In this document: positions 33,086-62,388 of the stretch, piece by piece
Layout: every line of letters starts with the position of its first letter
How positions within the stretch are numbered: position 1 is the first letter of the stretch
Assembly: GCF_002198655.1 (NCBI RefSeq)
Contig: NZ_MWLN01000199.1
Location: 1 to 64,000, forward strand
Direction: 5' to 3'
From: Kineosporia sp. A_224
GTDB taxonomy: Bacteria > Actinomycetota > Actinomycetes > Actinomycetales > Kineosporiaceae
Length of the DNA stretch: 64,000 nucleotides
Made by a program: the position numbers and the translations under genes
Notes under the pieces: generated by a model
Told to the model about the DNA's origin: nothing
Seen by the model: the letters and a program-made list of their open reading frames with translations, nothing else
The model's database searches: none

Positions 33086-33184
33086 GAGGCCACCCCCTTC
33101 GTGCGGGTCCGGTGCCGCGACGCTACCGCCGCCGGCGACCCGCGCGAGAGGACCCTTCGTACCTCGTTCGTCACACCTCGACAC

Positions 33185-33235
33185 GAGTTACTAGCGCGTA
33201 TGACCCACCTACGGGGTCATACGCGCTAGTAACTC
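33185..33235. repeat. Palindromic repeat element, copy 1 (perfect hairpin)
   Basis: 22-bp perfect stem (arm starts GAGTTACTAGCGCG and ends ATGACCC), seven-base loop, in the gap between the NCS1 permease stop and the methyltransferase start. A G-rich tract follows at 33238-33257. The same hairpin plus G-tract occurs at 61168-61240 inside ureC. May also terminate the permease transcript. Confidence 0.9.
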
Positions 33236-33255
33236 CAGCGGGCGGGGGTGTGGGG

Positions 33256-33283
33256 GAAAGAGAAGGAGAAGGAGAAGGAGAGG
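33256..33283. repeat. Purine GGAGAA hexamer tract
   Basis: Tandem GGAGAA/GAGAAG units, three full copies plus partials, immediately after the permease stop and adjoining the G-rich tail of repeat copy 1. On the transcribed (minus) strand it is a pyrimidine run before the hairpin. Confidence 0.7.
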
Positions 33284-45239: not shown

Positions 45240-45267
45240 GAGCCCTCCCTCCGCAGTCCGGTCGGAC

Positions 45268-45320
45268 GAAACGAAACCGTTCCGTACCGTCGAGAGGACA
45301 GTACGGAACGGTTTCGTTTC
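45268..45320. promoter_or_regulatory. TetR operator: 20-bp perfect inverted repeat
   Basis: Arms of 20 bases (left arm begins GAAACGAAACCG and ends TCCGTAC) around 13 bases, between the TetR start and the fabF stop. No coding. Arm length and position mark it as the repressor's binding site; two dimers could bind. Confidence 0.85.
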
Positions 45321-45356
45321 ATGCAACCCGAACCGCTCGGACAGGCGAGCGACCGG

Positions 45357-60636: not shown

Positions 60637-62388
60637 TCAGATGAGGTACAGCCGCGACAGGCTGACCCGGTCCTGGGCCGAGGATGTCACGACGTCACCG
60701 TCGAGCCGGACCTGCGCCGTCCGCGGGTCGACGGTCACGGTCCCGGTGCGGCCGTGGTGCGCCATGTCCGCCAGCCCGACGTCCCGGCAGCCGCGGACGG
60801 CGACCCGGCGGCGGCGGGTCGGCAGCCGGTCCTCGCCGGCGTCCGCGCAGGCCTGCGAGACGAAGAGCACCGACAGGTCGGCCGCCGCGCCGCCGTGCCC
60901 GCCGAACTGCGGGCCGAGGACGAGCGGCTCGGCGGCGTCGATCGTCGCGTTCGGGTCGCCGGTGACGCCCCACGCCGGCACTCCCGCCTTGAGGACGACC
61001 TGCGGCTTGACCCCGAAGAACGCCGGGTGCCACAGCACGACGTCCGCGAGCCGCCCGGGCGCGAGCGACCCCACCTCGTGCGCGAACCCGTGCGCGAGCG
61101 CCGGGTTGAGCGTGAGCTTGGCGAGGTACCGCAGCACCCGGAAGTTGTCCGCCAGCCCCATCCCCGCAGTTACCAGCGCGTATGACCCATCTATCGGGTC
61201 AGACGCGCCAGTAACTCGGGGGGAGGGTGGGGGGAGGGGGCCGAACTGGGCCTTCATCGCGCCGGCCAGGGCGAAGGTGCGGGCCCAGGTCTCGCCGGCG
61301 CGGCCCATGCCCTGGGCGTCGGACGACGTGATCGGGACGACGCCGAGGTCGTGGAGGACGCCCTCGGCGGCCATCGTCGCGGCCCGGACCCGGTCCCGGG
61401 CCAGGGCGTCCTCGCCCGGCAGGTCGGTGCGCAGGCCGTGCGCCGAGACGATCATCGCGTAGTGCTCGGCGGTCGCGTCGCGGCCGAAGGGCAGGGTCGG
61501 GTTCGTGCTCGACCCGATGACGTTCGGCACCCCGGCGAGCGAGAGGACGTCGTGGTGCCCGCCGCCGCAGCCCTCGACGTGGAACGCGTGGACGGCGCGG
61601 CCGGCGACGACGGCGAGGGTGTCGGCGACGCTCATCGCCTCGTTGAGGCCGTCGGTGTGCAGCGCCACCTGGACGTCGTGCTCGTCGGCGACGCGCAACG
61701 CGGTGTCGAGCGCGCGGTGGTGGGCGCCGGTGTCCTCGTGCACCTTGAAGCCGCAGACCCCGGCCCGGACGAGCGCCTCCTCGAGCGGTCCGGGGCGCGA
61801 CGACGAGCCGCGGCCAAGCCAGCCGACGTTGACCGGCCACGCGTCGAACGCGGCGATCCCGGCCCGGACGCCGTGCGCGTCGTTGACGCCGACGCCCCAC
61901 AGCGGCCCGTACTCCTGCCCGAGCACCGTGGTCATCCCCGACGACAGCTCGGCCTCCATGACGCGCGGGGAGAGCATGTGGACGTGGGTGTCGATGCCGC
62001 CCGGCGTCGCGATGAGTCCCTCGCCGTTGACGATCGCCGTGCCGGTGCCGACGACGACGTCGACGCCGTCGAGGGTGTCCGGGTTGCCGGCCCGGCCGAT
62101 GGCGGCGACCCGGCCGTCGCGGATGCCGATGCTCGTCTTGCGGATGCCGAGCACCGGGTCGAGCAGGAGGCAGCCGGTGACGACGAGGTCGCACGACTGC
62201 GACGGCGGCACGGCCTGCAGGTGCATCCCGTCGCGGGCGGTCTTGCCGTAGCCGATGAGCAGCTCGTCGCCGCGGCGGGCGTCGTCGACCGGGACCTCGA
62301 CGACGAGGCCGGTGTCGCCGAGGCGCACCCGGTCCCCGGTCGTCGGGCCGTAGACGCTCGCGTACGTGGCGCGGTCCATGCCGGTCAC
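60637..62388 (-). CDS. ureC: Divergent urease alpha subunit with in-frame palindromic insertion
   Basis: Nickel enzyme hydrolysing urea. 583 residues, from SVYGPTTGDRVRLGDT to the C-terminal SRLYLI. Nickel ligands look intact: IDTHVHM, carbamate Lys215 in GFKVHED, LHTDGLNE, AFHVEGCGGGHH and ITSSDAQGMG. The mobile-flap motif, normally CHH, reads SAHG. Residues about 383-407 (PPPSPRVTGASDPIDGSYALVT) are extra relative to ordinary UreC and are encoded by the palindromic repeat copy 2 plus its G-rich tail. GTG start coupled to ureAB (GTGA). Confidence 0.85.
   Translation of the reverse strand: MTGMDRATYASVYGPTTGDRVRLGDTGLVVEVPVDDARRGDELLIGYGKTARDGMHLQAVPPSQSCDLVVTGCLLLDPVLGIRKTSIGIRDGRVAAIGRAGNPDTLDGVDVVVGTGTAIVNGEGLIATPGGIDTHVHMLSPRVMEAELSSGMTTVLGQEYGPLWGVGVNDAHGVRAGIAAFDAWPVNVGWLGRGSSSRPGPLEEALVRAGVCGFKVHEDTGAHHRALDTALRVADEHDVQVALHTDGLNEAMSVADTLAVVAGRAVHAFHVEGCGGGHHDVLSLAGVPNVIGSSTNPTLPFGRDATAEHYAMIVSAHGLRTDLPGEDALARDRVRAATMAAEGVLHDLGVVPITSSDAQGMGRAGETWARTFALAGAMKAQFGPLPPPSPRVTGASDPIDGSYALVTAGMGLADNFRVLRYLAKLTLNPALAHGFAHEVGSLAPGRLADVVLWHPAFFGVKPQVVLKAGVPAWGVTGDPNATIDAAEPLVLGPQFGGHGGAAADLSVLFVSQACADAGEDRLPTRRRRVAVRGCRDVGLADMAHHGRTGTVTVDPRTAQVRLDGDVVTSSAQDRVSLSRLYLI
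61168..61216. repeat. Palindromic repeat element, copy 2 (inside ureC)
   Basis: 21-base arms (left AGTTACCAGCGCG...ATGACCC), seven-base loop, 18 of 21 pairs kept, followed by a G-rich tract at 61218-61240. Sequence-related to 33185-33235. Translates in the ureC frame without stop codons, adding residues about 391-407. Confidence 0.9.

Follow-up and report, generated by a model that had tools for sequence, protein, structure and literature searches.

Palindromic repeats in bacterial genomes are usually attributed to RAYT transposases. REPs are defined by their palindromy, copy number and extragenic location (PMC12306157); REPs and REPINs occur with RAYT (TnpA-REP), the GTAG- and CGTC-tagged families included (PMC3733652, PMC3116915), the GTAG or CGTC tag lying at the end of the repeat (PMC3733652), and some REPs are nested inside other palindromes, as are GTAG-23 of T. 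roseum and GTAG-15 of A. variabilis (PMC3733652). MITEs, among them RUP and the terminator-like SPRITE, are small, non-autonomous, intergenic inverted-repeat elements (reviewed in PMC10969869), and the Rickettsia palindromic elements (RPEs) are about 150 bp long and characteristically intragenic (PMC10969869). A literature search for REP or RAYT in Actinobacteria gave no result. The palindromic element described here, from Kineosporia sp. A_224, is here called REP/MITE-like rather than a member of either class: the REP tag and transposase are missing, and no parent element, as a MITE would have, turned up at up to three mismatches to the arm.

The window, i.e. the whole stretch of 64,000 nucleotides analysed (contig NZ_MWLN01000199.1, positions 1 to 64,000), contains a hairpin at 33185–33235 with 22-bp arms that are 100% complementary, as the initial annotation had described it. 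The left arm GAGTTACTAGCGCGTATGACCC (33185–33206), located by arm search and pairing, and the right arm GGGTCATACGCGCTAGTAACTC (33214–33235), its perfect reverse complement, enclose the 7-nt loop ACCTACG (33207–33213), which differs from copy to copy. A G-rich tract, CAGCGGGCGGGGGTGTGGGGG (33236–33256), follows and is adjoined by a GAAGGA-type purine microsatellite (33257–33283) that neither sister species has; no strand is assigned to any of these features. To the right, a cytosine/purine permease gene (PF02133; 33286–34758, minus strand) has its 3′ end towards the hairpin, and to the left the hairpin is upstream of the start of a methyltransferase gene (PF08241; 32243–33061, minus strand). 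The hairpin has an RNA folding energy of −52.3 kcal/mol (z = −7.6), well below that of shuffled sequence. A simple terminator scan found no terminator-like site at the hairpin, because it is followed by the G-rich tract and not by a T-run or U-tract, and a known RNA family was rejected, as no Rfam match reached its gathering score and the two weak ones obtained, both to miRNAs, fell far short of theirs.

The arm is highly repeated. With up to three mismatches, the count proposed in the initial annotation, there are 36 forward and 35 reverse matches in the 7.2-Mb genome and none to a reversed-pattern control; four of the matches lie in the window, where none are expected from shuffles, and correspond to the hairpin at 33185 and to a second one within ureC. 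Searching with a covariance model trained on 47 copies yields 38 copies in the A_224 genome and none in ten genomes from other Kineosporiaceae genera, while its two near relatives, Kineosporia sp. R_H_3 and a groundwater MAG, contain about 9 and 12; the possibility that the hairpin is unique to two sites and absent from sister genomes is thus not borne out. A degenerate version of the inner pattern, scanned against 84,980 species genomes (among which the A_224 genome itself may be left out), matched two genomes only, Kineosporia sp. R_H_3 and a single groundwater actinomycete MAG, and the further matches among 198 genomes of the same order are weak and resemble unrelated terminators. Viral, plasmid and phage collections contain no match to the element, and an origin from any of these was rejected. 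Eight of 37 hairpins sit at the ends of contigs (C117, C122, C99, C175, C43, C223, C136 and C75) in an assembly of 242 contigs, so perfect palindromes are likely to interrupt the assembly, and the true copy number may be higher.

Comparison with related genomes shows many of these copies to be insertions between intact flanks. Orthologous flanks in two sisters (G001 and G002) were found by DNA search and fetched, and the junctions compared, with only one flank used for copies at contig ends. There are 22 copies, including those at 33185 and in ureC, that are missing at every sister locus found, the flanks being mostly 90–98% identical; 11 are shared with the sisters, one more occurs in just one of the two sisters, and four were not placed. 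At 33185 the inserted segment is 58 bp (33178–33235, no strand), consisting of TCGACAC plus the palindrome, at a point where the sister sequence runs from CACACC directly into CAGCGGG; the loci in G002 (L151) and G001 (L159) are both empty, with flanks 95–97% identical. The net gain per insertion, from arithmetic on the alignments, is usually 57–72 bp, the outliers being the 33185 locus, with its microsatellite, and sites with other changes. Old shared copies in the sisters decay in place by substitution with their length unchanged (G001 L171), with no precise loss, and the empty sites are short and retain no trace of a hairpin; for these reasons the empty sites read as never filled, and loss appears less likely than gain, although the three genomes do not strictly polarise gain versus loss for all sites. 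The copy number and the empty orthologous sites in sister species rule out a lone terminator and bear out the earlier suggestion of a REP/MITE-like mobile repeat. The element does resemble intrinsic terminators as a stable hairpin that follows stop codons, often between convergent genes, but departs from them in having sequence-identical arms at 38 sites, no U-tract and a recent insertion.

There is a clear target preference. Of the 36 complete copies, 29 have a coding stop, positioned by a crude gene call from codon composition, no more than about 50 bp away (mostly 6–50 bp), and nine of these are flanked by stops on both sides. At several sites the empty site of the sister is itself a small C-rich/G-rich palindrome with the hairpin placed at its centre (L072 versus L165; L090 versus L153). 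At one locus (L062, 3900–4010) the insertion replaced the stop of a gene, and the new frame ends at a TAG within the hairpin arm (PTPPPSY*).

The second copy in the window (61161–61223, no strand) is the only intragenic copy recognised, and is an in-frame insertion of net 57 bp that adds 19 codons to ureC (60637–62388) relative to the ureC genes of both sister species, which are without it. Its hairpin (61169–61215) is decayed, with three unpaired stem positions, but its loop is still 7 nt long and a G-rich tract comes after it, in agreement with the initial annotation. The consensus palindrome is open in the frame of ureC, so no special mutation was needed for this insertion. An in-frame palindromic insertion in a protein gene recalls the RPEs; those, however, are about 150 bp and intragenic, whereas the element described here has this single recognised intragenic copy.

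There are several features common to the copies. First, the inner 20 bp are perfectly paired in most of the 36 complete copies, so the perfect stem at 33185 does not mark it as the master-like copy that it had been taken for. The inner 20-nt arm is almost invariant over copies, and where the stem does change the change can be compensated, e.g. GCGC to GCCC, which four copies match with GGGC on the other arm; double changes at stem pairs number 15, as compared with 4–8 in slid controls. Second, the loop is variable in sequence and 7 nt long in every copy; it is A+T-rich, while the window is about 26% A+T, and it fits the pattern RNYNRNY in 27 of 36 copies. There are 27 distinct loop sequences in 36 copies, against 33.7 expected from independent draws, and since identical loops are thus commoner than chance, some have probably been inherited along with the copy. 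We rejected the loop as a copied lineage marker: within the GCCCG subfamily the loops are barely more alike than chance (P = 0.08). Third, both ends are symmetric, reading (C/G)(C/G)A-GTTACTAG in nearly all copies, and beyond the A-T pair come two bases that are nearly always G or C. Finally, most copies are bordered by C-rich sequence on the left and G-rich sequence on the right, the C fraction of the C-rich border being 0.66 compared to 0.41 in the 20 nt after stops without a hairpin. The G-rich tail, which had been seen as one unit with the hairpin, is therefore half of a symmetric two-sided border, and the one at 33185 predates the insertion: the tract after 33235 is homologous to one that G002 has in its empty site, and so did not travel with the hairpin there. 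At two other loci (L075 and L080) the C-rich border is new.

Arms and loops differ greatly in their rates of change. Among the new copies, arms differ pairwise by 3.4% and depart from the consensus by 1.9%, while loops differ pairwise by 43%; third codon positions differ by about 10% between the species, and the loop would therefore be changing faster than neutral drift if the new copies post-date the species split. At shared sites the loops differ by 29–37% and the arms by 11–15%, with nearly all of the change on the sisters' side. The arms at old shared sites depart from the consensus by 3% here and by 14–15% in the sisters, although the consensus derives mostly from the A_224 genome and carries some bias; such consensus arms could reflect selection on the site rather than recency. 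This raises an alternative, in which the hairpin is a vertically inherited functional site, putatively the operator of a dimeric DNA-binding protein or an RNA 3′-end element, with purifying selection acting on the arms and the spacer free apart from its flexibility. The arms that are near-invariant here while those of the sisters drift, the fixed AT-rich 7-bp spacer with its RNYNRNY pattern, and the 11 sites common to the species are all in keeping with such a site. However, a regulator or terminator site leaves unexplained the 22 sites filled in one species only with their flanks intact, one of them inside ureC, and the arms of the sisters evolve at an approximately neutral rate; we consider a selected site to be an unlikely explanation.

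The spacer of exactly 7 bp in all copies would also suit the core site of a putative tyrosine-type site-specific recombinase, in which inverted binding arms would flank a 7-bp crossover region and recombination would spread the site, occasionally mobilising gene cassettes. A 324-aa DUF559 (nuclease-like) gene lies between two hairpins (L065, 3940–5140; G000:C237) and is missing there in G001, and a hairpin junction is common to C111:164k, C136 and C529 of G002; both suggest that hairpins also join rearrangements, and both could be counted in favour of a recombinase. Most insertions are, however, solitary hairpins without cargo, nearly all copies differ in the loop whereas crossover regions usually need to match, and ordinary homologous recombination is enough to explain the C111:164k/C136/C529 junction. 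Several ordinary paralogues of the DUF559 gene occur in each of the three genomes, and the bracketed gene was rejected as a driver. A recombinase core site is accordingly very improbable.

What might move the element is constrained by several searches. The Y1 HUH transposase (PF01797; RAYT/IS200) has no match in the A_224 genome, which is scored 100% complete, although the same search works in control genomes; the RAYT-type transposase that the initial annotation proposed to look for is therefore not present, and RAYT/IS200 was rejected as the mobiliser. The element has the general character of REPs, being short, palindromic, highly similar between copies, multicopy and mainly extragenic, and like REPs and REPINs shows a species-specific expansion and is at times nested in other palindromes. 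However, its stem is longer, perfect and without a bulge, its symmetric ends carry neither GTAG nor CGTC, its units are solitary, its host genome lacks a Y1 transposase, and its loop is hypervariable at a fixed length. Like MITEs, it occupies sites that are empty in relatives and would be non-autonomous, and its small size, inverted-repeat structure and intergenic spread would fit a palindromic MITE in which the arm is the terminal inverted repeat of an internally deleted DDE transposon. Against this, there is no unpaired arm at up to three mismatches in the 7.2 Mb (242 contigs, with eight copies at contig ends), contig-end and decayed copies aside, and thus, at that threshold, no parent transposon whose terminal repeat is the arm. 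Nor is any target-site duplication readable at the junctions, because the borders are runs of C and G. An interior of 7 nt, the entire centre of this element, is in addition too short for normal transpososome geometry. Descent from a DDE transposon is the least probable of the alternatives considered here.

We therefore favor the interpretation, to which we assign a probability of about 0.72, that the hairpin represents a single copy of a palindromic mobile element, non-autonomous and about 60–65 bp long, restricted to one genus of the Kineosporiaceae and recently amplified in the species of A_224. The unit is a 21–23-bp inverted repeat with a 7-nt centre and, usually, C-rich and G-rich ends; it inserts mainly just after stop codons and often into the tip of a terminator palindrome that was there before, which lengthens the stem of the terminator. 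A recombinase other than a Y1 transposase, encoded by the host or by the element, may recognise its folded or palindromic form in trans. The target sites point to recognition of terminators that are folded or palindromic. The loop would be either copied unfaithfully or hypermutable during hairpin extrusion, and it is a clue to the mechanism that the arms are frozen while a loop of fixed length changes fast. Insertions may be tolerated because a bidirectional 3′-end hairpin would be left intact or strengthened; by inserting at the tips of terminators, the element would also reshape the 3′ ends of dozens of genes. The expansion is recent and well resolved, and because the sister sites are empty and the genome is without a RAYT enzyme, it makes the question of how solitary palindromes move testable.

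The three congeneric genomes also contain a second palindrome family built to the same plan. Its arm GCTCATGCTCGCGCCGNGTACCG has 15, 33 and 14 forward matches in the three congeners and, across 195 further genomes of the order, just two isolated single matches, and its loci (L211–L230) have a fixed span of 72 bp, a variable 28-nt centre, and C-rich and G-rich borders. At the C117 site (L063; sister loci L198 and L208) a palindrome of the second family is present in both sisters and one of the first family in A_224. Together the two families suggest a local class of terminator-seeking palindromes, and since they share the plan, it is the plan, rather than one sequence, that may be novel. More tentatively, and with somewhat less than an even chance of being correct, they could represent an undescribed actinobacterial class comprising at least two unrelated families built on one plan (invariant arms, a fixed-length variable centre, and C-rich and G-rich borders), with an enzyme unlike RAYT and a loop diversified at or after insertion. 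The window contains one other strong palindrome, at 45266–45322 with GAAACGAAACCGTTCCGTAC arms, which is present in a single copy, and once in G001 as well; it looks like an operator and not a repeat, and serves as a negative control.
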